A DNA stretch of 64,000 bases, from the IMG/VR virus record IMGVR_UViG_3300037264_003220, positions 26,281 to 90,280 of that record. One strand, written 5' to 3'. The DNA is from a virus. The position numbers and the translations under genes are program-made. Under the pieces are notes generated by a model. It had not been told where the DNA came from. It searched no databases and saw only the letters and a list, made by a program, of their open reading frames with translations. Positions 47,671 through 62,606 of the stretch are shown here, piece by piece (the stretch's first letter is position 1; every line of letters begins with the position of its first letter).

Positions 47671-47889
47671 TTAATAGTCTTGAATGATAGGCTGTTCGCG
47701 GCAAGAAATCCATTGCTTAGCTTCCGCAATAGGGAGTCCGCTTTTGATGAAAAAAGACAAAAGCTCTGCTTCGCTCTCATATTGAGTGCTGGCAAGAATT
47801 GTCCGAACCCAAGCCGTGCGTGTTGAGACCAAAGAGTTGTCACTCTTTTGAGAAGATTTCCGTTGGTCTGACACTTTAGTCCACTGCAT
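47671..47889 (-). CDS. small W-T-K-tagged protein
   Basis: This is a 72-residue protein, MQWTKVSDQRKSSQKSDNSL, with AAAGGAAAAC before the ATG. It carries the M-x-W-T-K-x start shared with other small proteins of this block. The C-terminal ~45 residues form a compact helical domain (TAWVRTILASTQYESEAELL, FFIKSGLPIAEAKQWISC). A longer ORF in another frame over the same bases is rejected. The function is unknown. Confidence 0.5.
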   Translation of the reverse strand: MQWTKVSDQRKSSQKSDNSLVSTRTAWVRTILASTQYESEAELLSFFIKSGLPIAEAKQWISCREQPIIQDY

Positions 47890-47949
47890 TTTAGTTTTCC
47901 TTTATTACACTGATTTTCAGAGCGGTTCGCGTTCATGTTCTGTTTTCCT

Positions 47950-48069
47950 TTAACATCCGCAATTTTGCTTTGTCTTCTTAAGCATATTCGCTTTATACTT
48001 CCGCAGTATCGCGGCTGAGCTTACAATAACGATAATCAACATTATAAGTGAAAACAGCACAATTTTCAT
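47950..48069 (-). CDS. 39-residue single-pass membrane protein
   Basis: This short ORF begins 10 bases after the preceding stop. The protein starts MKIVLFSLIMLIIVIVSSAA with one strong membrane helix, followed by a basic tail (ILRKYKANMLKKTKQ) and a final Cys-Gly-Cys. A GGGAG lies 14 bases upstream, somewhat far. It fills an otherwise empty 190-base gap. A small membrane-anchoring role is likely; the details are unknown. Confidence 0.4.
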   Translation of the reverse strand: MKIVLFSLIMLIIVIVSSAAILRKYKANMLKKTKQNCGC

Positions 48070-48078
48070 ACTTGTTTT

Positions 48079-48294
48079 TCAAACTCCCGCTGGTCTATAT
48101 ACTCCAACTCCGCTCAAATCCTGAACTCCTATCTGCCCGCCTGAGAACGCCATCGCAATTTCCAGAGGCGCTTTCGTATATTCCGTGTAAAGCGTTAAAC
48201 CAATCTGAGAAACGATGATGTCACTTAATGGTATCGGTGCAAATTCTTTCCCCGCTGGGCCGCCGCCAAAGTTGACGCCAGAATCGTCACTCAT
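48079..48294 (-). CDS. unknown small protein
   Basis: This is a 71-residue protein, MSDDSGVNFGGGPAGKEFAP, Gly-rich at first, then with two hydrophobic but probably soluble segments (LSDIIVSQIGLTLYTEY, PLEIAMAFSGGQIGVQDL). The start shares a base with the previous stop (TAATG). No family was recognised. Confidence 0.4.
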   Translation of the reverse strand: MSDDSGVNFGGGPAGKEFAPIPLSDIIVSQIGLTLYTEYTKAPLEIAMAFSGGQIGVQDLSGVGVYRPAGV

Positions 48295-48689
48295 TAAAAT
48301 TCAGCCTGCCATTGTTCTTTGTACCAATCCAAACTCTTTGGCGCCAACTGTTTCCAACCTTCTTCTCCAGGCTCAATGCTAACTTTAACATTTGAAATAT
48401 GAACTGTCTGAGACTCCTGCTTGTAATCATCAGTAGAATCATCAAACACTTCGTATTCCACGGTAATGTCCTGGTCAGGGACAGTCACCATAACACCATC
48501 AATGCCCCAATCACGAACGTCAAGCTGCGCCGACCATTTCAACGTAATTGGCTTGACTGATTCCATCCCAGCTTCTTTATAATTCAATTCCACATCAGAC
48601 GTTTCAAAATTCATTGCGCTGGCTGAACGAACCCATGCTGGCGCCTGAAGTTCAGCAACAATATCTTTTGTTGTTCGAGTCCAGTCCAT
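48294..48689 (-). CDS. W-T-R-tagged beta-rich protein
   Basis: This is a 131-residue protein, MDWTRTTKDIVAELQAPAWV. After the tag-like start come many beta strands (VKPITLKWSAQLDVRDWGID, ITVEYEVFDDSTDDYKQESQ, VHISNVKVSI), and a short helix with SLDWYKEQWQAEF ends it. It is tightly linked to the W-T-K-tagged gene upstream (TAATG). No family was recognised. It may be one of a set of packaged small domains. Confidence 0.45.
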   Translation of the reverse strand: MDWTRTTKDIVAELQAPAWVRSASAMNFETSDVELNYKEAGMESVKPITLKWSAQLDVRDWGIDGVMVTVPDQDITVEYEVFDDSTDDYKQESQTVHISNVKVSIEPGEEGWKQLAPKSLDWYKEQWQAEF

Positions 48690-48943
48690 TAACGACCTTC
48701 ACCGTGAAGCAAATCTTCGCCCGTGTTCTCATTGATAATAGTCCAACGTAAGTTATCATTTACCCATTCCTGTTCTTCCGTGGTCAAATCAAGACCACTA
48801 ATTAAATTGCGCCATTGCTCGCCGACAAAATCTTCAAGCGCTTCCGATAAAGCATAGGCAATTTCACGTTGTCGTATATCATCAAGTACGACTTCTGTTT
48901 CTTTTTCGCCTTCGGGTATTTCTTTAGCTGTTTTTGTCCACAT
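48689..48943 (-). CDS. small W-T-K-tagged acidic protein
   Basis: This 84-residue protein starts MWTKTAKEIPEGEKETEVVL. Its first codons and ribosome site (from AAGGGATAATTT on) are identical over 29 bases to those of the next gene upstream. The body is acidic and helical (REIAYALSEALEDFVGEQWR, TTEEQEWVNDNLRWTI). Apart from the start, the two proteins are unrelated. The function is unknown. Confidence 0.5.
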   Translation of the reverse strand: MWTKTAKEIPEGEKETEVVLDDIRQREIAYALSEALEDFVGEQWRNLISGLDLTTEEQEWVNDNLRWTIINENTGEDLLHGEGR

Positions 48944-48955
48944 AAATTATCCCTT
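48927..48955 (-). repeat. 29-base direct repeat, copy 1
   Basis: This is an exact copy of the bases at 49155-49183. It covers the end of one gene, the ribosome site AAGGGA and the codons for M-W-T-K-T-A of the next. Together the copies bracket a 74-residue gene. Confidence 0.8.
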
Positions 48956-49171
48956 GCCTCCATATCCTCGTGCATCCAACTCTTGTTGTAATTGTTCAGT
49001 AGTCATATGTCGATAGCCTTGAAATCCATCACGCAAGCAACTCTCAATCCAATCCGGCGAACCTTGGTCAATCGCAATTTTCCAATCAGATTCAATCAGG
49101 ATATCGACGAGTTTTTCTTTGGCTTCATCAAATTCATTTTGTTTCTTATGAAGGGCTGTTTTTGTCCACAT
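48947..49171 (-). CDS. small W-T-K-tagged protein bracketed by direct repeats
   Basis: This is a 74-residue protein, MWTKTALHKKQNEFDEAKEK. After the tag a helical body follows (LVDILIESDWKIAIDQGSPD, MTTEQLQQELDARGYGGKG). The last part (HMTTEQLQQELDARGY) recalls short helical peptides in many phage proteins. The gene lies between two exact 29-base direct repeats, so it can be gained or lost by recombination. The function is unknown. Confidence 0.5.
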   Translation of the reverse strand: MWTKTALHKKQNEFDEAKEKLVDILIESDWKIAIDQGSPDWIESCLRDGFQGYRHMTTEQLQQELDARGYGGKG

Positions 49172-49183
49172 AAATTATCCCTT
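49155..49183 (-). repeat. 29-base direct repeat, copy 2
   Basis: This is identical to 48927-48955. It contains the end of the endonuclease gene (V-K-G-stop), the ribosome site and the first six codons of the 74-residue gene. The match in coding and non-coding bases points to copying rather than convergence. Confidence 0.8.
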
Positions 49184-49900
49184 TACGGCGTAACAGCCAA
49201 CCGTTTTCATAATTTTATCAGCAACAACATCAAATTTATTATTTATATCTCGTTCCCAAAATCGCAAAACAGTATGCCCATGACTTAATAAATAATCATT
49301 TTGAGACTTATCTCGTTCAGTTCCATGTGGATAATGATGCCAGTAATCACCATCGGCAAAGATACACACGCAGCCATCAATTAAAAAATCAGGAGTAGCG
49401 CCTCCAATTCGTGCTTGAAAACGAAACGGTATTTTTTTATCAATCAAAAACTTCTTAATCTTTCTCTCTATCGACGAATTAGCATACTTATTATGCCTAC
49501 TCCCATAAATAGCTCGGCACGTTTTAGAACAAGTTTTCTGTTTATCAAATAGTCTTTTTTCAACAAGAAACACCTTACTGCATATGGCACAAATCTTTGC
49601 CATTCTTGGAATCCAATGAGATGAATTTTGCCCTGATTTTGTTTTAGATAAATGTTGACCGTAACATTTGTTTGAACAAAATCTACTACCACCAATCTTC
49701 AAAAGATTAGTTCGTGGGCGAAACGCCGTTCCGCAAATTTCACACGGTTTCATCAGAGGTATCCGCTCATCATCACGTCGAGCTAATTTAGCGCTACATG
49801 ACAAACTGCAAGTGCGCCCTCCGCCACGTCTCACCTGACACGGAGGCGATTGAAACCACTTACCACACACGACACAATGACAATCAATTAAGATTTTCAT
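49175..49900 (-). CDS. homing endonuclease with three zinc fingers and Vsr-like nuclease
   Basis: This 241-residue protein has three N-terminal Cys4-type fingers (HCVVCGKWFQSPPC with TCSLSC, PCEICGTAFRP with FCSNKC, ICAICSKVFLV with TCSKTC). A nuclease domain follows with SSIERKIKKFLIDKKIPFRF, GGATPDFLIDGCVCIFADGD and VLRFWERDI. This P-D-F...D-G-D-x-W-H pattern is the DUF559/Vsr-like endonuclease core. The zinc fingers would read the DNA target. It starts in an ATGA overlap and ends three bases before the next ATG, supplying its AAGGGA ribosome site. The gene is A+T rich. Confidence 0.85.
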   Translation of the reverse strand: MKILIDCHCVVCGKWFQSPPCQVRRGGGRTCSLSCSAKLARRDDERIPLMKPCEICGTAFRPRTNLLKIGGSRFCSNKCYGQHLSKTKSGQNSSHWIPRMAKICAICSKVFLVEKRLFDKQKTCSKTCRAIYGSRHNKYANSSIERKIKKFLIDKKIPFRFQARIGGATPDFLIDGCVCIFADGDYWHHYPHGTERDKSQNDYLLSHGHTVLRFWERDINNKFDVVADKIMKTVGCYAVKG

Positions 49901-50685
49901 TCTCTAAAATAAACCAACCCTTTTTCAGTTGTTTCATAATCTCCAGAATAATGAGATAAAAAGTGCGCCCAACCATCAGTGCTCACGGCGTCTTCGGCGG
50001 CAGCGTCAATATCAATCAGATTATTTTTCATAACTAATTTCTTAGCTTCGTCTTCACCAAAATTGCTCACATAATAATCGTAACCGCCCATGCCTTCTCG
50101 AATTTGGTCTTCAGTCATTTTCTCCACGAACGCATCAATATGCTCCTGCGCATCGAATCCTTCGGCAAGCGCTTCGTCCTTGTCAACAATCTGACGCTCC
50201 ACTAATTCATCTGCAAGGCGGCTGGACAATCCTTCATGAGACGGCTCGCCATCAATGTCCGTGGCGTAACTCTGGTTCCATTCATTGTAAACTTCGCTGA
50301 AAAAGTCGCGAGCCTTGCCTTCATCAATTTGCGAATTCAACCATTCCTGATTAAACAGCTCCGGCTCATTCTCAAGGTCGTTATGCACTTGTTCAGTGGC
50401 AACCCGTTCCGCCACGTCTTCAGTCCAGAAAAATCGGTATTCAACGCCTTCAGCCTTGAATGTTCCGCCATCATCACTGTCGACTTTGAAATCGGTTATC
50501 TCGGCAACGTCAACGCTGAGAGACTTTGCCAAGTCAGCGACCGCTTTCTCGTCAAACTTGCCCACTGCTTCGGCGTCGTTTTCTGATTCGGCAATCCTCT
50601 GCATCTCCGCTACAGCTTCATCAGTGTTTTTGCCTTGATGAGCGAACTGTTCGAGCTTTACCAATTTATCCGTCTTCTGCTTCAT
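49897..50685 (-). CDS. unknown acidic protein
   Basis: The ATG at 50685 (MKQKTDKLVKLEQF) overlaps the endonuclease stop (TGATG) and follows GGAGGATTG, giving 262 residues; the longer frame lies inside the endonuclease gene. The protein is strongly acidic and helical (EAVAEMQRIAESENDAEAVG, DFFSEVYNEWNQSY, MTEDQIREGMGGYDYYVSNF). It ends in a compact C-terminal unit (STDGWAHFLSHYSGDYETTE, GLVYFRE) that looks like a small domain of its own. No enzyme motif was seen. Confidence 0.45.
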   Translation of the reverse strand: MKQKTDKLVKLEQFAHQGKNTDEAVAEMQRIAESENDAEAVGKFDEKAVADLAKSLSVDVAEITDFKVDSDDGGTFKAEGVEYRFFWTEDVAERVATEQVHNDLENEPELFNQEWLNSQIDEGKARDFFSEVYNEWNQSYATDIDGEPSHEGLSSRLADELVERQIVDKDEALAEGFDAQEHIDAFVEKMTEDQIREGMGGYDYYVSNFGEDEAKKLVMKNNLIDIDAAAEDAVSTDGWAHFLSHYSGDYETTEKGLVYFRE

Positions 50686-51305
50686 CACAATCCTCCAGCC
50701 GTAACGCACACAGCTTTTTCTGGAACAATACCCTTGCTTAACCGCGACCTAATCGTTGAATGATTTACACCAAATTTTCTTGACCACTCCATTACCGTTT
50801 TTGATTGATTACCAATTTTTAAAATCCATGAATCACTTTTATTTCTATTTTGCTTCTCAACAGTAGACCAACGAATATTCCCTGGAACATAACCTTTATT
50901 ATTGTCAATACGGTCAAGAGAATATTCAGCGGAAGGACGACGACCGATTGTTTTTAAAATATAAGCTAAAAATTCTTTGTAAGAATTTCTCCATATTGGA
51001 TACATCGTTATTCCATTGCCGCCGTAATAAATAAAGTCTTTATTATTTCTATTCCCTGTTCTACATTTTATTCCATGCCACAGCCTATATTCAGGTGTCT
51101 TGCCCGACTCGCCGTGAGTTCGTCTTTTGATGTACTTGCATTGCTCACATGATTGTACGCCTTGCGCCAAATTCGCATAAAATACTTCTCGAACAATTCC
51201 ACAATTACATCGACAAAGCCATTTAGTATGACGACCGCTTGATTTGGCTCTCGCCACAATCACATAGCTGCCATAAACGTCGCCAATTTTGGCTTTGGTT
51301 TTCAT
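50685..51305 (-). CDS. HNH homing endonuclease
   Basis: This 206-residue paralogue of the enzyme at 47 kb has a zinc-ribbon part (KWLCRCNCGIVREVFYANLA, SCEQCKYIKRRTHGE) and EYRLWHGIKCRTGNRNNKDF. The HNH-type core is IYYGGNGITMYPIW with AEYSLDRIDNNKGYVPGNIR, and the C-terminus is helix-turn-helix (KTVMEWSRKFGVNHSTIRSR). It is inserted between two unknown genes with overlaps of 4 and 1 bases. Its last codons GGA GGA form the next gene's ribosome site. The gene is A+T rich. Confidence 0.85.
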   Translation of the reverse strand: MKTKAKIGDVYGSYVIVARAKSSGRHTKWLCRCNCGIVREVFYANLAQGVQSCEQCKYIKRRTHGESGKTPEYRLWHGIKCRTGNRNNKDFIYYGGNGITMYPIWRNSYKEFLAYILKTIGRRPSAEYSLDRIDNNKGYVPGNIRWSTVEKQNRNKSDSWILKIGNQSKTVMEWSRKFGVNHSTIRSRLSKGIVPEKAVCVTAGGL

Positions 51306-52903
51306 AATTCGCCAGCCGCTTCCGAATGGGCTTGCTGTCTTTCTCTGAAAAATGCCTTGGCAAATCCTTCTTCACTGACCGCGTAAATCTTATTGTCAGA
51401 GAATTTGGAAGTGTCATCAAACACCACTTGCCCTTCCGCGATAACAAACACCAAAAGAGCTGGCTTGGTATTGATTTCTTCCGGCAAGGAATTATCAATG
51501 ACATCCACGAGCACGGAAAGAATGGCGTTGGCGCTAAAGAATTGGTCGACATCTTGTCCAGGCACTTGAATATCATTCTCAAGCTTCTCCGACAACTCGC
51601 GACCATGGTATTTGAAAGAGCTTACCCGCATGATGAAATTCCGCAACACAGAATTTTTTTGCTTGATGTATTCAAGAACCTTCGCTACGTTTTCTGTTGC
51701 AGCCTTGTCCACGTCAACTTCTTCCTGCTGCGCGTCAAAGTATTCCGATGGCGTCACCTGGTTCTTTTCGTCATCAAACGGCTTGCTCTTGATGCCGTCT
51801 TCGACTTCCATAAGCTTTTCCGACATACCTGTTTCTGTCGCCTTATCCTGAGAGTCGGTCGCTGGCTTCAAAGTCGTGTCCGGCTCGCCAGGGACGAGAG
51901 CGGTGCGAATCCAATCTGCTTCACTCGCAGTAATGTGCCCAAACTCAAGCGCTCCCTCAATCATAATTCGCACGTCATTGGTTGACGTTCCTCTCATACT
52001 GAGCTGGCGATAAAGGCTGGAGGCTCGTTCGCTAAGTTGTTTTGCAGACCCTTCCCTGCCAACGATGCCGTTCTCCGCAAATTCATCAGCCAACTCAGGA
52101 AACTTATCAGCAAGCTGTTTGAAATAGGAATCCCACTCAGCAACCTCTCTCCAGCTCATGCTTTCTGCACTCTGCGCTGATTGCCAATCAACTGCAATCT
52201 GTCTGGCTTCTCCGGCTGTCGCCACTTCTTCAACTGGCTTTCTGGCAGATGCCTGCAAAAGTATGCTCGGATTTGAGTCCAGGGTTGACAGCTCCGGCCC
52301 TTCATCTTTGAAGTCTTTCATCACGTCTTTCGTGAGAGGTTCGTCGAACAACATGGCTTCCTTCACATGGTCTTTTAAGCCTGCGATAGCCTTGTCGGAA
52401 GTGATGTACATTTCCACGACATCACGCTGAGTATCTCCCTTCTGACCAAACAGGGCGAAACCCCAGTTGTAGGGATTGATGAAGTAGAAGTCATAAGTCT
52501 TGTCTTTGGCGACGCCCCAGCCCATGGATATGCCTGGAATCGTGGGAGGAGTCGATAAGAACTTGCCAGGGTTGAGGAGGTCATAAGGATGGATGCCAGT
52601 CAAGTGCTTGAACGCCCGCACGATTTCATCCCGCTGATAGCCCAAAGAAATCAAGTAGCCTTCCATGAACTTATACGAAAAGCGCCCCTCGTTAATCATT
52701 CTCTTGAGGTTTCTTTCCAACTCAATACGCTCAGGACGAGTGTTGGTTCCGGCATAAAAAACGTCAGCATACTGATGACTGATGTTCCAGTCACGCGCTG
52801 ACGCTTTTCGCTTGGTTTCTTCTTTGGTTTTCAAATCGTTAAGAACGGGGTCAAATTCTTCCCCATCAAAATTGACATCTTCTTTTTCAAGCCAAGTTGA
52901 CAT
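51302..52903 (-). CDS. unknown multidomain protein with tag-like start
   Basis: I chose ATG 52903 (MSTWLEKEDVNFDGEEFDPV) because AGGAGG lies 8 bases before it; an ATG six bases earlier is too close. The 533-residue protein has RKASARDWNISHQYADVFYA, a helical part (ELERNLKRMINEGRFSYKFM) and PPTIPGISMGWGVAKDKTYD. Another tag-like ESMSWREVAEWDSYFKQL lies near 265, and the C-terminus (LSVLVDVIDNSLPEEI, ALLVFVIAEGQVVFDDT) forms an alpha/beta domain. K-A-S-A and Q-A-S-A segments separate the parts, as in the giant protein next to it. No family was recognised. Confidence 0.45.
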   Translation of the reverse strand: MSTWLEKEDVNFDGEEFDPVLNDLKTKEETKRKASARDWNISHQYADVFYAGTNTRPERIELERNLKRMINEGRFSYKFMEGYLISLGYQRDEIVRAFKHLTGIHPYDLLNPGKFLSTPPTIPGISMGWGVAKDKTYDFYFINPYNWGFALFGQKGDTQRDVVEMYITSDKAIAGLKDHVKEAMLFDEPLTKDVMKDFKDEGPELSTLDSNPSILLQASARKPVEEVATAGEARQIAVDWQSAQSAESMSWREVAEWDSYFKQLADKFPELADEFAENGIVGREGSAKQLSERASSLYRQLSMRGTSTNDVRIMIEGALEFGHITASEADWIRTALVPGEPDTTLKPATDSQDKATETGMSEKLMEVEDGIKSKPFDDEKNQVTPSEYFDAQQEEVDVDKAATENVAKVLEYIKQKNSVLRNFIMRVSSFKYHGRELSEKLENDIQVPGQDVDQFFSANAILSVLVDVIDNSLPEEINTKPALLVFVIAEGQVVFDDTSKFSDNKIYAVSEEGFAKAFFRERQQAHSEAAGEL

Positions 52904-53006
52904 TGCCATTTCCTCCTGAAATATAGTGTATTTTTTACCATTTTTCCACAACAGCTTGTGGAATCTCTGTTATTCTCCACAACCTATTGGTGTTCTCCGT
53001 CGAGAC
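52904..53006 (-). promoter_or_regulatory. intergenic region with perfect hairpin
   Basis: This is one of the few real gaps in the operon. It contains an 8-base perfect inverted repeat (TTCCACAA / TTGTGGAA at 52944-52963) with a 4-base loop. On the minus strand an A-rich stretch follows it, then TACACTATATTTC before the AGGAGG. No U-run follows the stem, so a terminator is unlikely; a processing site, protein-binding site or promoter is possible. Confidence 0.35.
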
Positions 53007-53195
53007 TTATTTTCCAGAGCAAGACTTCAGAGCCTGGAGAGACTTCTCGTCAAGCGCGGACTCAAGACTAAAACCTTTTTTCACAACTTTAAACTCTCGC
53101 CTCGGCGGTCGCGTGTCTCGTCTCACCATCGGCTGCGGCATCTTGCGAGCCACATTATTCAAGGCGTCTATGGCTTTGTCCAAACTTCCCTTCAT
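53007..53195 (-). CDS. unknown small basic protein
   Basis: This 62-residue protein, MKGSLDKAIDALNNVARKMP, starts in an ATGA overlap with the giant gene's stop. It is basic (VRRDTRPPRREFKVVKKGF) with a short helix at each end. The first residues (KGSLDKA) repeat a string found in the giant protein near residue 962. The function is unknown. Confidence 0.45.
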   Translation of the reverse strand: MKGSLDKAIDALNNVARKMPQPMVRRDTRPPRREFKVVKKGFSLESALDEKSLQALKSCSGK

Positions 53196-56100
53196 ACTGG
53201 CATGGCTTCCTTTTCTTTGATTGTGAACGTGGCGCCCGTGGGCTGGTCATATGTGTCCAGAATAACGGCGTCGTATTTCTTATCTTCCGCGATAAGCGCC
53301 GCGTGCCGCTTCACTATCTGCGCTTTGTCGCCGTTATACAACCACACTTTGTCGCCTTCACGAAACTTATACCCAGCGTTCTTAAAGAACTCTGCCGTGG
53401 ATTGGATTTTCAAGTTCTGCTTCTTCCGTTTCAGCCTGCGGGATTCTTTGTCAAGCTCCCACGCGCTGCCGGACAAGTCAGAGCTTTTGAATTGGTCGAA
53501 GTATTTGGCATAACGCTTTTGAGACGAATTAACTTCTTTGTCTTCCGGCGCCAATGTAAACACGGTCTTGCCTGTTTCGGCAAGGTCTTCAAGAGGAGAC
53601 CAAACTTGATAATTCGGATACCACCAAATATTGACGCCTTCTTCGGCGCGTAAATGACCAGCGTCATCAAGCACTGCATCAGAAAGAATCGGAGCCGACG
53701 TAAGAGCGCCGATGTCTTCTGGGTTGACCCACATTAAACCAGCGTCAGTGACAGGCTCAAAAACTTCATACATGAGGTTATCACTCGTATCGCCTGCCGC
53801 AACTTTTTCTTTTAATTCAGCTTGACCTTCAGCGTCAATGGAAATTTCTAAATCACTATTTGGTAATTGCTTCCAAACCGTAATCCAATACGATGCTTTC
53901 TTATCCAACGCCGCATGACGTTCCGGCGGGATACGGTCTGTCTCCCATATTTTATTGATGGGACGCGTCACGATTCCGCTGCCATCTTCCATATCAATTT
54001 TCATATTGCCTTCGGCGTCCGGCTCCGATACTGCCCATCCATACCAGCCATCGACTTCAAGATACTTGCCAATCCACGGCCCGCGCTTTGGGTCTATGTG
54101 GGCAGTTTTTTCCACGGCGCCACCAGCTTGTCTAGTCACGACCACATCATGCCCTTCATGTTCACTCTTTCTATTTGGGAAGAAAGGCATTTCACAAGTC
54201 CGACACCAATATTCATCAGCGCCAGCTTGACGCGCCACGACAGATTGCTTCTGCACGAATTCCATGGCTTGGTCAATCATTTGTTGACGACGTTCGCCTT
54301 CGGCAGCATCAAACGCTCCACCTGTCCACATGGACAAAGCGCTTTCCACGGCTTTGCGTTCGTCGCCCTTATCAAGCTCAAGGCATTCTTTGTAAACATC
54401 TAGAAAGGAAACTTCCTCGGCGTTCTTGCCAAATGAAGCCGTCTTCGTCGCAATGGTATCAAGCAACTTATGCACGGCTTCGGTCACGTCTTCGCCGCGC
54501 ACATACGCTGCTTCAGCAACTTTATAAACCTTTCCAATGTCCATGATATTGATTTGATATCCATACACGGCATCCTGAACAACTCTGTCCAATTCAGCCT
54601 GTTGCTTCTTGGGCAACTTGGATTCTCTTACCGCAGCTATCTTGGTGACTTGCGAAGTTTCGCAATGAGGGCAATAGATAGTTTCATTGGCGCGATTACG
54701 AACAAATTTATATCCACATTTTTCACATTGAAAATTCGTAGGCTCGCCCGCCGCTGCCGTTACTTCTGTCTTCGCCGCTTCCTCAGCTGCTTTGGCTTTT
54801 TCTTCCTTCTTGGTCTTGCGCGTCTCCTGCTGGTCTTTAAGACGCTTTTCCAATTTCTCAAGCGCGTCCACTGTTGAAGCAATCTCAGATGGGTCGGCTT
54901 TGTCCACGTCCAAATCCTTCAGTTTCCGGCGCAACGACTTCACTTGGTCAGACAAGCCAGCTCTCCGGCTCCCGCCAAGCTTCTTATTTACGGCGGCGGC
55001 AATTTCTTGAGCATTGTCTTCCATCCAACGAACGAATGCAGGATTATCCAAATCGCCAACAGCATCCGCTCCGCCGCTCACTTCACTCATTGCCCAATTA
55101 TAAAGCCCTTCATCATTGAGCACCCATTCCGTGAGCGAGTCCAAATCATTGGGAGCAATTTCAAGAATAGCCTTCCGAAGCGCACCCGTTTCATCGAACC
55201 CTTCTTCGGCAGTATCCGCCAAGATGCCTTCCCATTCTTTTTGTGCTTCTGCTTCAGACGCATATCCCTTTGATTCAACAAATCCCTGTTCACCTGTCCA
55301 AAGAATGATAAACGGATTCGCCTCGAACCATTGCTTTTCTTCGGCAGTAAGCGGAGCAACTTCAAGCTCGGTCGCAACCTTCTCGGCTTCCTCGGCAGTC
55401 ACACTGCGTAACAGACCATACCAGCCGCCTGTTTCAACGCTGCCAGCTTCTTCGCCAAGTCCATCCAAACTCATAGTCCAAAGGATTTCGTCAATGATGG
55501 TGCTGAACTTTCCTGGCCCCTTGCGTCTGATTCCTTCTGCCGCCGCTTTGTCCAATGAGCCTTTGACTGTATGCTCGCGGTCTAACTTAGCCCACTCCGC
55601 ATACGGCATATCATAAAGAGTTTTGGGGTCGACGCCCATTTTCTGAGCAACCTCATCTTTGCGTTCCTTCTGATAAATCATAGAGTCCTTGTCTTCAATC
55701 CCATAAAATCGTGCCTGCTTCATACTGCCCTCCAAATAAAGTTTGTTGTCGTCTCCAATGACAAGATTTATTTCACCAAACGAATGCGCAATCTCAGTCA
55801 GCTTATCACCAACTTCGCCAAGACCTCTATCCCAAAACCCAGCACCATGCCCATTGCGAGTCAACCAGAAGTCATGCCCAGCCTGTTCCTCATCAATACC
55901 ATTCAGCAGCTCGCCCGCTTTCTCTTTGAACGCCGCGCAATCTGCCTTGGCTTTATCCATACTCTCCGGCGATATGTCGGCGAAATCATAATTCTTGTCA
56001 AGCGGGTCTCCGCCTTGCTCATCAGATTGGTCTAACTCAGACCACAACGCCGCTTCAAGATAGGCGCCAACGAACTTGCCCAAGCCTTGATACGATTCAT

Positions 56101-58447
56101 CGGCAGCTGTCTTTGTTGTGCCGCCGCCAGCAATAAGGTCAGCCACTTCGCGGAACGCATCAACCTCGACATCTTTCTCTAAAGACAAAGCATGTTCGCC
56201 ATTCACGCTCACATCAATGGCGCCATCATCCGCATAAGAGAATGTAAACTGCCAATCTTCCGTATCAATCGTTCCTGCTGGAGGATTCGGCAAACGCATC
56301 TCGTTCATGTAATCAAAGACTTTGGGCGGCAGCTGCTCAAAACGCAAAGTGACAGAGCCTCCCTGCGCAGCCGTCTTCTGTTTCACTTCCTTGCGAACCT
56401 TGCTGTTGCAACGCTCGCAAAAGTCAGAGCCATCCTCTTTAATGCCCAAGCCGCATTGAATACACAGATTGTCCTGCGCACTGATAATCTTCTTTTCCTC
56501 AAACTCTTTGCGATGCTCGCGCTCTTGCTCAATGGTATGCTCAAGCACTTTCTGAAGGTCTGGGCTGGCGTCTTCCTTCTGCCCACGGTATTCATCTATG
56601 GCAGCTTGCTCAAGCTCCACATCGCGTTTCACTATTTCTTCGTCGCGGCTGGCGGTCTTTGAACTTGCTTCTGTGCCCATATCGCTTTCGGCTATGATTT
56701 CGGCAACAATTTTATTGGCGTCAGCACCGTAATGCTCAGAAACTTCCTTCATCCCGCCACCGTAATAAGACTTCACAGCATCTTCAAGTTGTTGTGCTGA
56801 ATAATCTTTCAAATCAATATCGAATAACACTCCATGGTCAAACACCATAAACTCATTTTCAGATATTTTCTTTACCCACTGATTCGTATCTTCATCTGTG
56901 CGAGTAAACCCATTTTGTTTGAAATAAGATTCGCCGTACATTCCTTCATCGCGACTGGCGGTCTTGTTCCCATGCTTCCTACCAAGATATTCACCGAAAT
57001 TACCATCAATGCTGGCGTTGCCGTGGTCAGATATCTGCCACACATTCGGGTAATAATTCTCCTTCTGCATCCAAGCATAAATGTCGCCATAGAACTTGTC
57101 CCAATCATCATGCAGCTTGGCGATTTTTTTGCCGCCTGCGTAAGCGACAGTCTCGGCGCCCAACGTGCCTTCGCCTTGAATAATGACATCTTCTTCAGAT
57201 GGGCCGCCATTTATCCCCATGTCATCTATAATTTCGTCATCAGGGATGCCATGTTCGTCGGCGAAGTCGGCTTTCTTATTTAATGACGCTTTCTTGGTAT
57301 CCCGCCACGTCGACCAATCCTGAAAATACTCAGCCGCCATTTCCATGGTCACATCAATACCAGCTTCATTGTCAGCGATATCTCGGATATAACTAATCAA
57401 ATCATCTTGGTCAGGAACCATATGCGCCTTGGCAAAATAATCCTGTGACTCTTGAAGAACCTTGTCTGTCCATTCTGGGTCGCCAACGCCAGGCGCGTCA
57501 GCGTCTTCGCCCATTTCATCAAGCGCCGTCACGAGCCGCTTCACCATACCAGCTTTCTTCTCGCCGCCTGGTTTAGAGCCATAATAAAAATAAGCCACGG
57601 TCACTTGGTTGTTTTGCATATCTGGTTCTTTAACGGCATACCCACTCCACGCCGTCACGGTATCAAAACCGATATACCCAAGATTCGCCAACTCGTCATT
57701 CTCCACGACCACGAACTCTCCCAAGTCAAACACGTCGCCATCAAACCTAAAGAAATTCCCCTGACCAGATTCTTCTGATTTAAAGTAATCAACCGTTTTC
57801 TTTTCTTCATCAGTCAATTCGTCAAAGTCAACCAACGGCACGGTTTCTTCCTTTTGAATGATGAGTTGGTCATCGGCTTGTTTCTTCATGCCAGCTTCTT
57901 TCTTAAACGAGCATTGCACTTGCTCCGGCTTCAGGTCTTTATGTTCAGCCAAATATTTCTCTTTGGCTTCTTGACAGGTCTTCGCCCATGTCGTGGTTGC
58001 CTTGTATTCCTTATCAACAAAGATTTCTATTTTGGGATGGCTGCGTTTATCGCCGTAGGCAGCTTCTAACTTCGGCAATCTTCCCGTGCCTTCACACGCC
58101 GGACATTCCTTGCCATCCATATGCCCTTCACCGCCGCATTCGGTGCAGGTTTCCCAGTCCTTGGCAACCTTTGTCCAGGAAGCAGCCTTCACAATCTTAA
58201 GATGATATCGCGCACCACAATCTTCACATTCCTCCACCTTGGAATAAGCGTCAGGGGAATTGAAAGTTGTTTTATGACCAAGCTCGTTATGTTTCTGATA
58301 AGGAGTTTTCTCGCTCGCCGACGCCATGCAACCGCAAGCACCGTTGCACTTGGCGCATGTTTCCGATTCCTGCTTTATCTTGGCAGGAGCCATTCTGTCT
58401 TTCGGTTCGTTCATCAATCGTTTCTTCGGCGGAATTAAATTATCCAT
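53192..58447 (-). CDS. giant string-of-domains protein (candidate polyprotein)
   Basis: I chose ATG 58447 (MDNLIPPKKRLMNEPK) behind AAAGGAGAG, giving 1751 residues; the upstream extension lies in the endonuclease. About 15 small domains are joined by K-K/T-A-S/A/D linkers near residues 88, 298, 386, 496, 598, 692, 780, 1336, 1448 and 1517. Visible parts are Cys pairs (31-76), a tag-like SWTKVAKDW (90-98) and a DnaJ-type zinc region (101-122). A short two-helix ferritin-like segment (608-648) is followed by a zinc ribbon (662-680). GHDFWLTRNGHGAGFWDR lies at 857-874, a coiled coil at 1165-1230, and zinc ribbons at 1241-1262 and 1415-1433. No membrane segment is visible. I infer a virion-packaged or cleaved protein. 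Confidence 0.6.
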   Translation of the reverse strand: MDNLIPPKKRLMNEPKDRMAPAKIKQESETCAKCNGACGCMASASEKTPYQKHNELGHKTTFNSPDAYSKVEECEDCGARYHLKIVKAASWTKVAKDWETCTECGGEGHMDGKECPACEGTGRLPKLEAAYGDKRSHPKIEIFVDKEYKATTTWAKTCQEAKEKYLAEHKDLKPEQVQCSFKKEAGMKKQADDQLIIQKEETVPLVDFDELTDEEKKTVDYFKSEESGQGNFFRFDGDVFDLGEFVVVENDELANLGYIGFDTVTAWSGYAVKEPDMQNNQVTVAYFYYGSKPGGEKKAGMVKRLVTALDEMGEDADAPGVGDPEWTDKVLQESQDYFAKAHMVPDQDDLISYIRDIADNEAGIDVTMEMAAEYFQDWSTWRDTKKASLNKKADFADEHGIPDDEIIDDMGINGGPSEEDVIIQGEGTLGAETVAYAGGKKIAKLHDDWDKFYGDIYAWMQKENYYPNVWQISDHGNASIDGNFGEYLGRKHGNKTASRDEGMYGESYFKQNGFTRTDEDTNQWVKKISENEFMVFDHGVLFDIDLKDYSAQQLEDAVKSYYGGGMKEVSEHYGADANKIVAEIIAESDMGTEASSKTASRDEEIVKRDVELEQAAIDEYRGQKEDASPDLQKVLEHTIEQEREHRKEFEEKKIISAQDNLCIQCGLGIKEDGSDFCERCNSKVRKEVKQKTAAQGGSVTLRFEQLPPKVFDYMNEMRLPNPPAGTIDTEDWQFTFSYADDGAIDVSVNGEHALSLEKDVEVDAFREVADLIAGGGTTKTAADESYQGLGKFVGAYLEAALWSELDQSDEQGGDPLDKNYDFADISPESMDKAKADCAAFKEKAGELLNGIDEEQAGHDFWLTRNGHGAGFWDRGLGEVGDKLTEIAHSFGEINLVIGDDNKLYLEGSMKQARFYGIEDKDSMIYQKERKDEVAQKMGVDPKTLYDMPYAEWAKLDREHTVKGSLDKAAAEGIRRKGPGKFSTIIDEILWTMSLDGLGEEAGSVETGGWYGLLRSVTAEEAEKVATELEVAPLTAEEKQWFEANPFIILWTGEQGFVESKGYASEAEAQKEWEGILADTAEEGFDETGALRKAILEIAPNDLDSLTEWVLNDEGLYNWAMSEVSGGADAVGDLDNPAFVRWMEDNAQEIAAAVNKKLGGSRRAGLSDQVKSLRRKLKDLDVDKADPSEIASTVDALEKLEKRLKDQQETRKTKKEEKAKAAEEAAKTEVTAAAGEPTNFQCEKCGYKFVRNRANETIYCPHCETSQVTKIAAVRESKLPKKQQAELDRVVQDAVYGYQINIMDIGKVYKVAEAAYVRGEDVTEAVHKLLDTIATKTASFGKNAEEVSFLDVYKECLELDKGDERKAVESALSMWTGGAFDAAEGERRQQMIDQAMEFVQKQSVVARQAGADEYWCRTCEMPFFPNRKSEHEGHDVVVTRQAGGAVEKTAHIDPKRGPWIGKYLEVDGWYGWAVSEPDAEGNMKIDMEDGSGIVTRPINKIWETDRIPPERHAALDKKASYWITVWKQLPNSDLEISIDAEGQAELKEKVAAGDTSDNLMYEVFEPVTDAGLMWVNPEDIGALTSAPILSDAVLDDAGHLRAEEGVNIWWYPNYQVWSPLEDLAETGKTVFTLAPEDKEVNSSQKRYAKYFDQFKSSDLSGSAWELDKESRRLKRKKQNLKIQSTAEFFKNAGYKFREGDKVWLYNGDKAQIVKRHAALIAEDKKYDAVILDTYDQPTGATFTIKEKEAMPV

Positions 58448-58460
58448 TGAAATCTCTCCT

Positions 58461-58925
58461 TTAATGCAAAGCTGCGACAGCTTCCTGATACATCGCGCTC
58501 GCCTCTTGTTCGCTGTTAAAGCTCCCAAGGTTCTTATTTTTTCCCGAAAATCTTATTTGGGCAATCCATTTGTTACGTTTTTTATCCCAAGTCACGCCAA
58601 TGTATTTTGAATAAGTTTTACCATTCCTTCTCGCAGTTCGATTAGAACTATTGACCCGTTGAGTCACAATTCTTAAATTTTCTCTCTGATTATTTAAGCC
58701 GTCTCCATCCTTATGGTCAACCATCATGCCTTTGATACGAGGGAACCCAATAATAAAATGGTGCATATATTCTGCTCTTTGAACCCCATCAACAGTATTT
58801 ACATGACGCGCAGCATAAAAAACATTTCGACTCTTAACGGCGAACCAATTTAATGAATTCAAAATATCAAAAATACTATCATCAACTATTGCCACTTTAC
58901 CTTTGGTAAGTTCAATTTCTTTCAT
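58461..58925 (-). CDS. HNH homing endonuclease with AP2-like domain
   Basis: This is a 154-residue protein. Residues ~40-95 form an HNH_3-type nuclease (EYMHHFIIGFPRIKGMMVDH, then KDGDGLNNQRENLRIVT). The C-terminus (KYIGVTWDKKRNKWIAQIRF, GKNKNLGSFNSEQEASAMYQ) is an AP2-like DNA-binding domain. It lies between the two largest accessory genes, overlapping the upstream one by 14 bases, and is followed by TAAAGGAGAG and the giant protein's ATG. The gene is A+T rich. It is the only one of the seven endonucleases whose stop lies before the next ribosome site. Confidence 0.88.
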   Translation of the reverse strand: MKEIELTKGKVAIVDDSIFDILNSLNWFAVKSRNVFYAARHVNTVDGVQRAEYMHHFIIGFPRIKGMMVDHKDGDGLNNQRENLRIVTQRVNSSNRTARRNGKTYSKYIGVTWDKKRNKWIAQIRFSGKNKNLGSFNSEQEASAMYQEAVAALH

Positions 58926-61900
58926 CGGCTATTTCCCCATCAAGAACATCAAATGCCTGCGCTTCCGTAATTTTAAATTGACCCATTAAATCTTCAACGA
59001 TTTCATTCTCATTCATAGTGCCCAGCTTAACTAAATCTTTTGCTAATTGCTGTGTACTATTAACAGGGATAGTAGGCATAGGAGCGCCAGCATTTGGAAA
59101 AACATCCTTTGTCCCTGTCTCAACCGCATCTTCAAAACGGTCTCTATCTCTTGCCGCAGGCGATATGGTTTGTGAACCATCGTTTCTTTCTGGAGCAGTA
59201 TCAGTATGAGCATGTTGAGTCGCTGGCTTCACCCACCCAAGCTGAACCAGATAAGCGTAAAGGTCTTTCTCGGTTTTGTCGGCGCCGTATCCTGGTGCTG
59301 ACTCAGCATGATAACGCTTCGCAACTGTCTCAGCCTGCTTCTCGTTCAGGAACGGGGTTTGGTTCGGGTCGACTTCGTACCCCATCACGTCAAAGGCAAG
59401 ATTGAGCAGATTTTCTTTATGGTCTACAGCGTCCGCCTTCACCTTCAACACCCGCGCGTCGGCACGCAGAGACGCTTCCAGCTCAAGCAGAGCAACAAAT
59501 TCTTTATCGCTCGCGCACTTCCCTGGAATCCATTCAAACCGACTCCTGTCTCCACGCGCCCGCGCCGTCTTCCAATGCGGATGGTTATTAATGAGAGCGA
59601 AATAACTCTGCCATGTTTTTTCCACGGCAGCATTTATATGGAGATTAGGAACCTTATCGGATTGTGATAACTTTGACTTATCCACAGAGTTATCAGACTT
59701 ATCCACAGGCACGAAGCCGCTGCCCCGCTTCACTGCCATCATACGGCTGATTATCTTGGGCTGGGGGCGCGGGGTCGGTGCGCTTGGATTGGTCTTGATG
59801 ACAGGCTCCTGACCAGGAACGAGAGCGGGTTCTTCGTCGGACGAGGACGGTGCGCTGGGTTGTTCCGGCTGGGCTGGTTTGGCAATCTCCTCCACAGGAG
59901 TTGGCGGCATGACGGGCTTTGCTTGCGGCCCAACGCCTTCCACGTCCTCCGGCTTGGGTTCTTTGGGCGGCGGCGCCTCTATGCCAGTCTGCTTGGACAG
60001 CTGGTCATGAATCTTGCGCACGTCTTCCTTGGTATATTTCAATTGGTTGCGGGACAGCCAGGTATAAATCTCATGTTGAATCCCTTCAAAGTCCATGCCC
60101 TTCAGATTTTCTATGGTGATGCCGTCCAAGATACGGTTTGCCACGTACACGGGCTGAAGGCTTATAGCGGCTTCAAATTCAAACTCGGCATCATGTTTTT
60201 CATCCTCGTCAATTTGATTATTCACCTCTATTTCGCAATCTGCGCACATGCCATGACTGGTGCGCTCCGCATTGGGGTCGCCCTTCAAATGCTTGCCGCA
60301 CCATGCGCACACGGTTTTGGTGGGAATCTGCGCCGCCGTGCGCCCAAAGAAATAATGAATATCCTTTGCGCCATCGTAAGCCCAAACCAATGACGCATCC
60401 TCCGCCTTCCAAAAGCTCACAGCCTTGCTCGTTGGCACAGCACTCATGTCACCCACCGCGTCAACAAACTCCGGCTCGGTCATCTCCACCCCGCTCTCCA
60501 CAGCCTGAGCCATCTCTGTAGCGTCACCAAATGGCGAGGATGGGTCTTCAAGAATATCCACGCACGTGCCCACGAAACCAAACTGGGCGCCCGTTTTCTT
60601 TTGACTCGCCCACTTTTTCATGTCCTCGATAGACACGTCCACATCAGCAAGGTCATCCCAATATTCCTGACCATCCTTGCCAGGGTTGACGCCGGATTCA
60701 ATAGTGCCGGATAAGGTCAAGCGCATCTCCCCGTCCTTCACGCCCGTCGCCTTATTCAACAATTCCACGAACACATCCGCGAACACCATGCCTTCAGCCG
60801 AATCAAGATTGGTCAAGACCACATTGGTTTTGTAATTGGCGGGGTCAAATTCAAAATACATCGACACAAGGTCGGGCAGCACGCGCTCAACATTGGTGGT
60901 CACTTCGTCGTTCCATTTCCACGCCGGATTCTTGTCGGCTGGCTCCGTTGGCGATGCGGGACGGGGGTCGGAAGGCGACAGCACAGTCAACTTTTGGGGG
61001 GTCGTCTCATTATCTGTCGCAAGCGATTCATCATCAAGCTCTTTCAACGGTTCGTCCACCGCCGCCGCTGGCATTGGCGGTTTGTCGCCACGTTCAATCG
61101 CTTTGGGTTGATTATCAATAACTCTTGGTTCACCTGGTTCCTGCGCCGTCCGTGTCCAGCTGGCTTGGCAATTGATACAGCCCCCGTCGTCGTTTATCTC
61201 AATAGGCGGCTTGGGAGACCCACAATCTTTACAATACACGGCTTCCGCCGCACGCCAAAATGTTCCACGTGGAACATTTTTCGACGCCCTTTTGTCCCCC
61301 ATATCCGTAGAAGATTCGTCCAGCACTTCCTCCACTTTGTCAACCTGACTGACATCCAATGAAGGGTTCTCGTCCGCATCTCCAAGTATTTTTTCCAGGT
61401 TCTTCCACAACCAAATATAGCCGAACTTCTGGAGGTATTTGAATGTGATGTTTTCCTCCGAATCCGGCTCATAGTCTACATCCCGCTCATCAGAGACTTC
61501 CTGCGCTTTATCCATAATAGCAATCAGCTCGTTCTCTAATTCCTCGGTACGTTCTTGTAGGCGGTTCTGAAATTTTGAACGGGAGGCAGAGTCCATGGTC
61601 TCAATAGCTTCTTTCAGAGCATCAATGTTTTTGATGTCTCTCTTTGCGTTCCCGATAGCCACGTCAAGTTCCTGCACCATGCCTTCAGCATCATCAATGA
61701 TTGACGAGTAAACCGACTCAGGGTCGAAATCAGTATCCACGGTACGCGGCGCCTGTTCCCACGTATCCGTTTTCAAATCATAAATTCCATCCGTGGTATG
61801 CGCCTGCATATGCGGAGTCTCAAACGAAACCTCGAAAGGATGTTCAGTATCCAGCACTTTCCATTGCTGGTCACGCATTTCATCCTTATACGAATCCAAG

Positions 61901-62181
61901 ATTTCATCGAGGTCGTCTTGAGAAAGACCAGGATATTCCGCTTTAAGCTTATCCCAATCCACCACGATATGAAGGTCAAGGTCGGAACGGCGATTCCATT
62001 GAAACGAAGTGAGAGAGCCGAGGATGCGCATGGTTTCAATCCAGGGCACGTCCTGAAGATAGGGTTCTATTTTAGATAGGATGTCTTCTTTGACAGCCTG
62101 CTTAAGGGTTCCGTCACTCTCCCAAATGGATTGGTCGAGTCCGCTCATGCTGTAATCGAGAACGTTGCCTTGTTTTTTCAT
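58912..62181 (-). CDS. large protein with nucleotidyltransferase-like N-terminus
   Basis: This is a 1089-residue protein. ETMRILGSLTSFQWNRRSDL followed by DLHIVVD (50-75) is the G-S...D-x-D signature of DNA-polymerase-beta-type nucleotidyltransferases (Asp67, Asp69). A helical region with DKAQEVSDERDVDY follows. Later parts are joined by K-R-A-S and Q-A-S-W-T-R-T-A motifs near 298 and 340: a zinc ribbon (CKDCGSP, CINCQ), an acidic/Pro-rich linker and a second zinc ribbon (CAWCGKHLKGD, GMCADC). A Pro-rich spacer and two more helical domains end it. Architecture and linkers match the giant protein encoded next. The role of the nucleotidyltransferase, perhaps acting on tRNA or a host protein, is open. 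Confidence 0.55.
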   Translation of the reverse strand: MKKQGNVLDYSMSGLDQSIWESDGTLKQAVKEDILSKIEPYLQDVPWIETMRILGSLTSFQWNRRSDLDLHIVVDWDKLKAEYPGLSQDDLDEILDSYKDEMRDQQWKVLDTEHPFEVSFETPHMQAHTTDGIYDLKTDTWEQAPRTVDTDFDPESVYSSIIDDAEGMVQELDVAIGNAKRDIKNIDALKEAIETMDSASRSKFQNRLQERTEELENELIAIMDKAQEVSDERDVDYEPDSEENITFKYLQKFGYIWLWKNLEKILGDADENPSLDVSQVDKVEEVLDESSTDMGDKRASKNVPRGTFWRAAEAVYCKDCGSPKPPIEINDDGGCINCQASWTRTAQEPGEPRVIDNQPKAIERGDKPPMPAAAVDEPLKELDDESLATDNETTPQKLTVLSPSDPRPASPTEPADKNPAWKWNDEVTTNVERVLPDLVSMYFEFDPANYKTNVVLTNLDSAEGMVFADVFVELLNKATGVKDGEMRLTLSGTIESGVNPGKDGQEYWDDLADVDVSIEDMKKWASQKKTGAQFGFVGTCVDILEDPSSPFGDATEMAQAVESGVEMTEPEFVDAVGDMSAVPTSKAVSFWKAEDASLVWAYDGAKDIHYFFGRTAAQIPTKTVCAWCGKHLKGDPNAERTSHGMCADCEIEVNNQIDEDEKHDAEFEFEAAISLQPVYVANRILDGITIENLKGMDFEGIQHEIYTWLSRNQLKYTKEDVRKIHDQLSKQTGIEAPPPKEPKPEDVEGVGPQAKPVMPPTPVEEIAKPAQPEQPSAPSSSDEEPALVPGQEPVIKTNPSAPTPRPQPKIISRMMAVKRGSGFVPVDKSDNSVDKSKLSQSDKVPNLHINAAVEKTWQSYFALINNHPHWKTARARGDRSRFEWIPGKCASDKEFVALLELEASLRADARVLKVKADAVDHKENLLNLAFDVMGYEVDPNQTPFLNEKQAETVAKRYHAESAPGYGADKTEKDLYAYLVQLGWVKPATQHAHTDTAPERNDGSQTISPAARDRDRFEDAVETGTKDVFPNAGAPMPTIPVNSTQQLAKDLVKLGTMNENEIVEDLMGQFKITEAQAFDVLDGEIADERN

Positions 62182-62184
62182 ATT

Positions 62185-62430
62185 TTAATTCCAGTCCACT
62201 TTAACCTTGGTAAATCCCACGGGTCGCCTTGCATACAATCCTGGCTCCAACCTAACCACTTCAACCCATATCTCGCTGTCCGGCTTGTCAAATTCAACCA
62301 CGGGCCAGAACTCGCCCTTGATGTACCGCCGCATGGTCATTACTGATGGGATGGTATCGAACAACCACTCATCATGCGCCAGTACACGGTCAAAAATAAC
62401 CCGATATCGTTCCGGCAGCTGAACGTTCAT
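62185..62430 (-). CDS. unknown small protein
   Basis: This 81-residue protein, MNVQLPERYRVIFDRVLAHD, has an alpha/beta mix and ends in beta strands (EIWVEVVRLEPGLYARRPVG, FTKVKVDWN). The start shares a base with the previous stop (TAATG). No family was recognised. It lies just before the nucleotidyltransferase-like gene and may serve with it. Confidence 0.45.
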   Translation of the reverse strand: MNVQLPERYRVIFDRVLAHDEWLFDTIPSVMTMRRYIKGEFWPVVEFDKPDSEIWVEVVRLEPGLYARRPVGFTKVKVDWN

Positions 62431-62606
62431 TAATAATTCGACAACACCGCGCCAATCTTGTCCAGCTCATTGATGATGCCGTCCAAATCAGCAGGGCTTG
62501 GATTCCCCGCGTCCAAAGCATCAGCGATGAGTCTCAACTGCTGCGCCATCCCAGGCAAAGTGTCTGGGTCTCCACCAAATGTCTCCGCTTGTTTTGTCCA
62601 GCTCAT
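62430..62606 (-). CDS. 58-residue W-T-K-tagged protein
   Basis: The ATG at 62606 (MSWTKQAETFGGDPDTLPGM) has GGAGG directly before it, so the longer frame is rejected. After the tag come two short helices (AQQLRLIADALDAGNPS, DLDGIINELDKIGAVLS). The start matches the internal S-W-T-K-V-A of the giant protein. This suggests the same small module can exist as a free protein or inside the string. The function is unknown. Confidence 0.6.
   Translation of the reverse strand: MSWTKQAETFGGDPDTLPGMAQQLRLIADALDAGNPSPADLDGIINELDKIGAVLSNY

Follow-up and report, generated by a model that had tools for sequence, protein, structure and literature searches.

Why should small proteins that otherwise have nothing in common begin with the same handful of residues, and why should that string recur inside a protein of 1,751 amino acids (aa)? 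Both questions are raised by a 64-kb stretch of viral DNA taken from the 90,280-base IMG/VR record IMGVR_UViG_3300037264_003220 (positions 26,281 to 90,280; here called the window), in which seven proteins carry a short M(x)W[TS] start, referred to below as the tag. A sequence-only reading of the window had offered two interpretations, a signal that targets cargo to the phage head or a protease recognition site. We favor the second, and we put at a little over three in four the probability that the tag is an instance of the site recognized by the phage's own head maturation protease and that the giant proteins encoded nearby are cargo polyproteins cut in trans. This answer draws on the motif and its enrichment, on sites in the capsid and portal proteins, on the placement of the motif at module edges in close relatives, on the shuffling of those modules, and on conservation of the motif core.

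In this reading the protease would recognize aromatic-x-[KR]-x-A and cut after the alanine, at sites that lie within the capsid propeptide and close to the N terminus of the portal protein. In small single-domain cargo proteins a cut at the start would remove 6 or 7 residues; in the giants, the cuts would fall between modules, and trans cleavage within the prohead would break a single long chain into some 20 pieces. The tagged small proteins would be single-domain versions of the giant cargo polyproteins.

The tag and its core

The strings quoted by the sequence-only reading are present where it located them, both at the protein starts (47889, 48689, 48943, 49171, 62606, 32096, and 35003) and inside the large proteins, where SWTKVAKD occupies residues 90 to 97 of the 1,751-aa giant and ASWTRTAQE lies in a second protein of 1,089 aa. 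Four of the seven starts (48943, 49171, 62606, and 35003) have the full W-[TS]-K-x-A; the final alanine is replaced by serine in 47889 and by threonine in 48689, and 32096 lacks both the lysine and the alanine. Past residue 8, no clear pairwise similarity was found among the seven (best E value, 0.047), in agreement with their earlier description as unrelated beyond the tag. What had to be given up is WT as the core of the motif: the tryptophan gives way to phenylalanine, leucine, or methionine in other viruses, and also in the sites of capsid and portal proteins described below. The core is instead [KR]-x-A, mostly with an aromatic residue two places before it.

Genes were predicted with a simple, uncurated caller, on whose calls the motif counts depend; the reading frames that it missed include 47035-47658, 49175-49900, 50685-51305, and 32096, the last of which was added by hand to give the head-region set of 33 proteins used for the main window counts (32 in later counts). 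WT[KR].A occurs 5 times in this set, against 0.1 per shuffle (maximum, 2 in 300), and not once in the other 46 proteins, and M.{0,2}W[TS][KR] occurs 6 times where shuffling predicts 0.1. The tripeptide [KR]TA is found 20 times versus 5.2 ± 2.3 in shuffled sequences (maximum, 13 in 300), and the remaining 46 called proteins have 5 (7.6 expected); for the broader [KR][KTVQE]A, the figures are 78 versus 34.2 in the head region and 30 versus 33.9 elsewhere. Sought within the first 16 residues as [FW].{1,2}[KR].A, the tag is present in 5 of 32 head-region proteins (0.43 expected) and in none of the 46 others; one of the five matches is the start of the protease, MFIRRAT.

One might argue that [KR]-x-A is simply a by-product of linker composition, given that lysine, threonine, alanine, and serine are common in flexible linkers, and that it has no recognition role. 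Module edges in actinophages do lie close to the control motif A.[KR] as well (see below). However, composition alone is difficult to reconcile with the reversed motif AT[KR], which shows no excess where [KR]TA does (1 versus 5.3 expected in the window head region, 3 versus 3.0 in an Eggerthella phage, and 2 versus 2.5 in Finch), and it leaves the start tags, the capsid sites, and the portal site unexplained. We regard this account as very improbable.

The codons of the tag are synonymous variants of one another, between genes as well as between viruses (TGG ACA AAA, TGG ACT AAA, TGG TCT AAA, and TGG ACT CGA), so selection acts on the peptide and not on the DNA. The exception is the pair 48943 and 49171, in which 29 identical bases (48927-48955 versus 49155-49183) cover the ribosome-binding site and the tag, a pattern that copying of the tag as a DNA cassette would leave.

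Two close relatives, G001 and G002, have capsid proteins with 92 to 94% identity to that of the window. The protein at 48689 aligns with its G001 orthologue at W-V-R-[ST]-A, which is N-terminal in G001 (WVRTA) and preceded by a longer leader in the window. In 35003, both the N-terminal tag and an internal copy (WLKKA↓DATPG, tag plus module; arrows mark predicted cuts unless stated otherwise) are kept in G001 and G002, and residues A7-D8 of the N-terminal A↓D are invariant across four sequences, that of the more distant relative G003 among them. As aligned, the orthologues of these two tagged proteins conserve the core while the length of the leader varies.

Sites in the capsid, portal, and protease proteins

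The proposal that the tag is a protease recognition site is, as far as sequence can tell, well supported by the recurrence of its core in the capsid and portal proteins, at the module edges of the giants, and in the orthologues just described. Capsid proteins with F-x-R-x-A include, besides those of the window (Table 1), G001, G002, and G003, those of G004 (GFTRSA), G005 (NFKREA), and G009 (GFDRRA), and seven actinophage capsids have G-[FL]-x-R-x-A, Pupper with serine as the last residue. In G006 and G007, a gene that by eye resembles those for homing endonucleases stands ahead of the capsid frame, and the capsid N terminus is out of view. No site of the F-x-R-x-A type was apparent in the capsid N termini of phage G, the Eggerthella phage, Rctr197k, and the Erwinia phage Alexandra.

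Phage G provides a measured cut. Its capsid protein has 282 residues and, by N-terminal sequencing, 255 when mature (PMC5646251, Table 1), so that by subtraction it is cut after Ala27 (GRVALA↓QAMA); the same figures rule out the idea that this protein has no N-terminal extension. Ala27 aligns without gaps with Ala76 of the window protein (GFRRLA↓YSMQ), i.e., with its second F-x-R-x-A. Among 14 capsid proteins, the aligned position has lysine or arginine three residues before the cut (P3) in 12 and alanine immediately before it (P1) in 7. The measurement supports alanine at P1, but in that one case it does not support K/R at P3. A search of the PDB found a single related capsid chain.

The portal protein carries a similar site, GFKRTA↓EF in the window, GFKRQA↓DF in G001 and G002, GFERTA↓QF in G004, and GFTREA↓AD in G003, and a 920-aa protein of G009, portal-like by eye, has GFTRKA↓SV. 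The head maturation protease was assigned by a family match together with the position of its gene beside the capsid and portal genes. Its His94 and Ser145, which all eight aligned sequences share (phage G and two actinophages among them), are probably the catalytic residues. A scan for the protease over viral contigs returned only two loci, both on contigs already in the comparison set. The string KKWSWTDVVKK, which the sequence-only reading had listed as a further copy near the protease N terminus, is present, but it lacks the core and is not a site; it is the proteases of G003 and G005 that have one, GFEKIA and DFKKTA, respectively, near their N termini and just before this conserved tryptophan region, and the window protease has neither.

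Several relatives have what appear by eye to be intein-like inserts: in a protease (L027:4881-8363), a portal protein (L027:25-2739), a terminase-like protein (L035:14353-18039), a ligase (L033:2366-5329), and L050:5223-8336. Similarly, an Eggerthella LE2-3 gene annotated as tRNA synthetase resembles, by eye, a head protease with an intein.

The giant proteins, their modules, and known systems

Cut at its [KR][TKVQ]A sites, the 1,751-aa giant would yield 21 predicted pieces of 6 to 218 aa. In its G001 homologue (2,320 aa), the shared modules stand in the window order, with insertions, losses, and one module duplicated; in that of G002 (2,444 aa), the order differs from both. No match to the window giant was found in G003 or G004. 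In the window, a module found in the G002 giant belongs to a gene distinct from that of the giant (51302-52903), and a 524-aa protein of G009 fuses two modules that belong to two different window proteins, with its own start string, MSF[VI]NFK[KR]L (which has no alanine), repeated between them.

The edges of these modules often lie close to the sites. From 79 high-scoring segment pairs (HSPs) among six proteins, counted in both directions, 91 merged ends were obtained and compared with random rotations of the ends; 48 of the 91 lie within 10 residues of [KR].A (27.9 ± 4.4 expected), a count reached in 0 of 5,000 rotations, and 31 lie near [KR][TKVQ]A (14.0 expected). The controls gave 24 versus 19.4 for A.[KR], 26 versus 30.0 for [DE].A, and 32 versus 32.5 for [KR].[VIL]. 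Modules that bring their own flanking sites could be lost, duplicated, reordered, or turned into separate genes without spoiling their release.

These results also bear on the possibility that the tag is a capsid-targeting signal which brings cargo into the prohead, with cleavage secondary or absent. N-terminal signals of this kind have precedent in T4 internal protein III and in bacteriophage P1 DarB, the first 30 residues of which suffice as a targeting sequence (PMC9024508), and tags stand at the extreme N terminus in several viruses. However, the tags span just 5 to 7 residues against the 30 of DarB, each giant contains the core many times over, module edges coincide with sites in the window clade, and the capsid and portal proteins, for which cargo targeting is needless, have the core too. 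We consider a targeting role unlikely and prefer the protease site.

With regard to content, the window giant has one weak Pfam match, but PHROG matches fall on several separate stretches. The G003 giant (1,992 aa; L022:2054-8032) matches DNA ligase, mCpol, GGDEF, LigD Prim-Pol, a weak sigma-like domain, and LigD 3'-PE, which places at least two disparate domains in one polypeptide, as in polyvalent proteins, and all four of its F.K.A sites fall between Pfam domains. The union of ligase, primase, and phosphoesterase domains in this one protein resembles an end-joining kit. The second large protein of G001 has a DarA_C domain (E value, 1.1e-6, above the curated cutoff) and weakly matches phrog_1926, described as "released from the phage upon host infection" (E value, 0.0026), on a stretch without counterpart in the window homologue; none of the ten window proteins scanned has the DarA domain, and an NCBIfam scan of the window cargo proteins found nothing of use. 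That the large proteins are head cargo is suggested indirectly, by gene location, by the DarA_C domain of G001, and by the enzyme domains of the more distant G003.

Polyvalent proteins, as described by Iyer et al. in 2017 (PMC5512222) and mentioned also in PMC7824862, are very large phage proteins that string together many domains, with shuffling of enzyme domains that include GGDEF, primase, and nucleotidyltransferase types; they are linked to DarA and thought to be injected with the DNA, and they have already been likened to RNA virus polyproteins. For part of the class, Iyer et al. proposed that embedded zincin or C-terminal assemblin-like peptidases release the domains before or after injection (PMC5512222). 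A comparable arrangement, in which the present sites are cut by an embedded or host protease or only after injection, has this precedent. In contrast, no peptidase family matched the large proteins of the window, G001, G002, or G003 at an E value of 0.01 or better, and the cargo sites match those of capsid and portal proteins, which are head protease substrates in phage SPN3US (PMC10052503). The combination points to cleavage in trans by the head protease and leaves the alternative with the slightest of chances. The relevant passages of PMC5512222 contain no site code, and the word "linker" occurs 0 times in its main text. We recognized no description of this code in the literature, although most subscription journals and all preprints lay outside our coverage, and this is therefore weak evidence of absence.

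The nearest parallels among head proteases are those of T4, phiKZ, and SPN3US, in which, in the accounts consulted, capsid, portal, and ejected internal proteins are cut at one short motif; the SPN3US enzyme, gp245, cuts after A-X-E at 14 sites in nine substrates (PMC10052503). The motif differs, [KR]-x-A here versus x-x-E in those phages. So does the outcome: the SPN3US cuts take off N-terminal propeptides and the C-terminal one of the protease itself, whereas in the present system many mature pieces would come from a single chain. P1 likewise has internal head proteins, of which DarA is believed to be proteolytically processed, and the G001 large protein shares DarA_C with it, although that of the window has no such part. 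The idea that P1 shares the code was rejected: the mature N terminus of its capsid protein (PMC9024508), read with the preceding residues of the sequence, gives a cut at MLE↓S, so its protease code differs, and [KR]TA occurs 6 times versus 3.1 expected.

More distant comparisons also differ from the present case. African swine fever virus infects eukaryotes, its pp220 and pp62 serve as structural proteins of the core, and their protease and site are unlike those here. Herpesvirus assemblin and the phage head proteases are members of one superfamily, and assemblin cleaves its scaffold after alanine; to our knowledge, its system has no cargo polyprotein. Both pp220 and pp62 are DNA virus polyproteins that are cut to build internal layers of the virion (PMC10308890). 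The best-supported reading, a single protease code for capsid, portal, and cargo with the giants as cargo polyproteins, falls within the polyvalent protein and prohead protease themes and departs from both in the way the modules would be released.

Other phages, gene order, and implications

Enrichment of the motif is seen again in phages whose hosts are Mycobacterium, Gordonia, Rhodococcus, and Eggerthella. [KR]TA was fixed in advance for Eggerthella LE2-3 (17 versus 3.0 in head proteins and 2 versus 2.8 in tail proteins) and for seven actinophages, in which four to six hand-picked large head proteins per phage contain 8 to 24 copies versus 2.2 to 3.4 expected. In Rctr197k, the counts are 14 versus 5.5 for the head and 0 versus 4.3 for the tail, and in fetched regions they are 13 versus 4.8 for phage G, 17 versus 6.7 for Tonenili, and 20 versus 9.2 for Stormageddon. 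[KR]TA is not enriched in Alexandra (3 versus 5.9). Broader or phenylalanine-containing forms are enriched in G002 ([KR][TKVQ]A, 55 versus 32.3), G003 (F.[KR].A, 7 versus 1.7), and G006 (F.[KR].A, 7 versus 2.5). The N-terminal form [FW].{1,2}[KR].A is carried by 5 of 29 G006 proteins (0.21 expected) and by none of 33 in its other fetched regions; tags in the G006 clade read MEWLRKA, MKWIKKA, and MPWLIRRA. It is found also in G001 (4 of 36 proteins) and G002 (5 of 28), the protease included in each, in the G009 head region (3 of 21, one being the capsid protein), and in Stormageddon (2 of 37).

Within the first 50 kb of phage G, proteins start MKRLISKTA, MKRLIKKAS, MSKKISRLKKTA, and MKKFSRLQKKAA. 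Its gp13, gp17, gp20, gp38, gp53, gp56, and gp57 (contig L023) have a common start of their own, RL(I)KK[AS]-like or KTA, and gp53, one of its bearers, is ART-like by eye.

Several observations weigh against the protease site reading. The motif variants were picked after the window contexts had been seen, so that the weight rests on the phages analyzed later. [KR]TA alone is unenriched in G002 (10 versus 6.9), G003 (3 versus 2.1), and G006 (6 versus 4.5), as is F.[KR].A in G001 and G002, and some controls are raised: A.[KR] in Tonenili (138 versus 113.9) and Stormageddon (174 versus 136.0), A.[KR].W in G001 (5 versus 1.7), and A.[KR].F in the Rctr197k tail (8 versus 2.1). The N-terminal [FW].{1,2}[KR].A tag occurs in none of 59 phage G proteins and none of 14 from G005, its counts in G003 (1 of 29) and Tonenili (1 of 38) fall short of significance, and the G005 portal protein has no site. 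At the aligned capsid position, P1 is glycine in 7 of 14 sequences, and the measured phage G site, VALA↓Q, has alanine at P3 rather than K/R. In the edge test, each HSP was counted in both proteins, so the module ends are not independent; [KR]A (30 versus 19.4) and, slightly, [KR].[STG] (38 versus 30.1) are also raised in the window clade, and in actinophages the signal is unspecific ([KR].A, 140 of 372 edges versus 116.9; control A.[KR], 113 versus 86.9). In the G003 giant, plain [KR].A sites show a slight preference for stretches outside domains, with 6 of 16 falling inside (domain coverage, 49%) against 10 of 15 for the control A.[KR], and a structure prediction for giant residues 560 to 1250 was too poor to show linkers (mean predicted local distance difference test score, 49.6).

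All 56 of the 56 window genes found by the caller lie on the minus strand. In order of transcription, small genes and the two giants (about 63 to 47 kb) are followed by the portal and protease genes and then by genes for a scaffold-like protein, a small protein, and the major capsid protein (Table 1); further cargo-like genes extend to 29 kb, and tail genes follow.

Table 1. Window features discussed in the text
Feature	Coordinates	Strand	Remarks
Tagged small protein MSWTKQA (MSWTKQAE), 58 aa	62430..62606	-	G002 homologue starts MSWTKTA
Second large cargo protein (predicted), 1,089 aa	58912..62181	-	phrog_36119; nucleotidyltransferase-like N-terminal module (by eye); WTRTA; HSPs to L020 and L017 proteins
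Site WTRTA in 1,089-aa protein, residues 342-346	61144..61158	-	Motif search
Giant cargo polyprotein (predicted), 1,751 aa	53192..58447	-	20 [KR][TKVQ]A sites; modules shuffled in G001/G002
Site WTKVA in 1,751-aa giant, residues 91-95	58163..58177	-	Motif search
533-aa protein	51302..52903	-	Residues 221-289 are the module in common with the G002 giant
Tagged small protein MWTKTA (MWTKTALH), 74 aa	48947..49171	-	Full W-[TS]-K-x-A
Tagged small protein MWTKTA (MWTKTAKE), 84 aa	48689..48943	-	Full W-[TS]-K-x-A
Tagged protein MDWTRTT (MDWTRTTK), 131 aa	48294..48689	-	Degenerate start; aligned site WVRSA, residues 19-23 (48621-48635)
Tagged small protein MQWTKVS (MQWTKVSD), 72 aa	47671..47889	-	Also STRTA at residues 22-26
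Portal protein	42890..44785	-	phrog_16240; start MAKTA; site FKRTA↓EF, residues 64-68 (44582-44596)
Head maturation protease	40477..42111	-	phrog_18299 "head maturation protease," E value 2.6e-21; His94 and Ser145 invariant
Scaffold-like protein	39433..40455	-	EKTA↓QGS near C terminus, KTA at 39496-39504; named by position, without family match
Major capsid protein	37895..38893	-	phrog_2522 major head protein; two F-x-R-x-A sites
Capsid site FARTA↓GN, residues 40-44	38762..38776	-	F40, R42, and A44 shared by all four sequences aligned
Capsid site FRRLA↓YS, residues 72-76	38666..38680	-	Aligned with phage G mature N terminus, Ala27↓Gln28 (by subtraction)
Tagged protein MQWSKKA (MQWSKKAD), 475 aa	33576..35003	-	Internal repeat from WLKKA, residues 107-111 (34671-34685)
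Weakly similar start MSWTTVS (MSWTTVSN), 147 aa	31653..32096	-	Without K and A

Seven endonuclease-like genes are scattered among the head and tail genes (47035-47658, 49175-49900, 50685-51305, 58461-58925, 27989-28744, 14844-15752, and 459-1217). Five of them match HNH_3/AP2, NUMOD3, DUF559, or Vsr; those at 47035 and 50685 have no family match yet are alike by eye. Two proteins with long repeat arrays (unit like QVSQLTTI) are encoded at 19807-24191, and beside them in the tail block an 819-aa protein (24193-26652) has glycosyltransferase-2 and TPR matches.

Few phages have known head contents besides DNA, or a known means of selecting them. Cleavage of these proteins by this protease at these sites, presence of the products in the virion, and their injection are inferred here, and on balance we lean toward the view that a widespread group of tailed phages uses the arrangement, with phages of Mycobacterium smegmatis and of Eggerthella among its members and phage G as a possible one: interchangeable effector modules furnished with the capsid protease's sites would be packed as one chain, cut at head maturation, and injected with the DNA, and the site would amount to a genome-readable list of head contents. 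Myrna virions have been purified (PMC7150772), and relatives that grow on M. smegmatis put the idea within reach of testing. If it is correct, a site common to capsid, portal, and cargo would make the injected set predictable from sequence, would account for the free shuffling of domains in giant polyvalent proteins, and would offer a handle for loading foreign proteins into phage heads.

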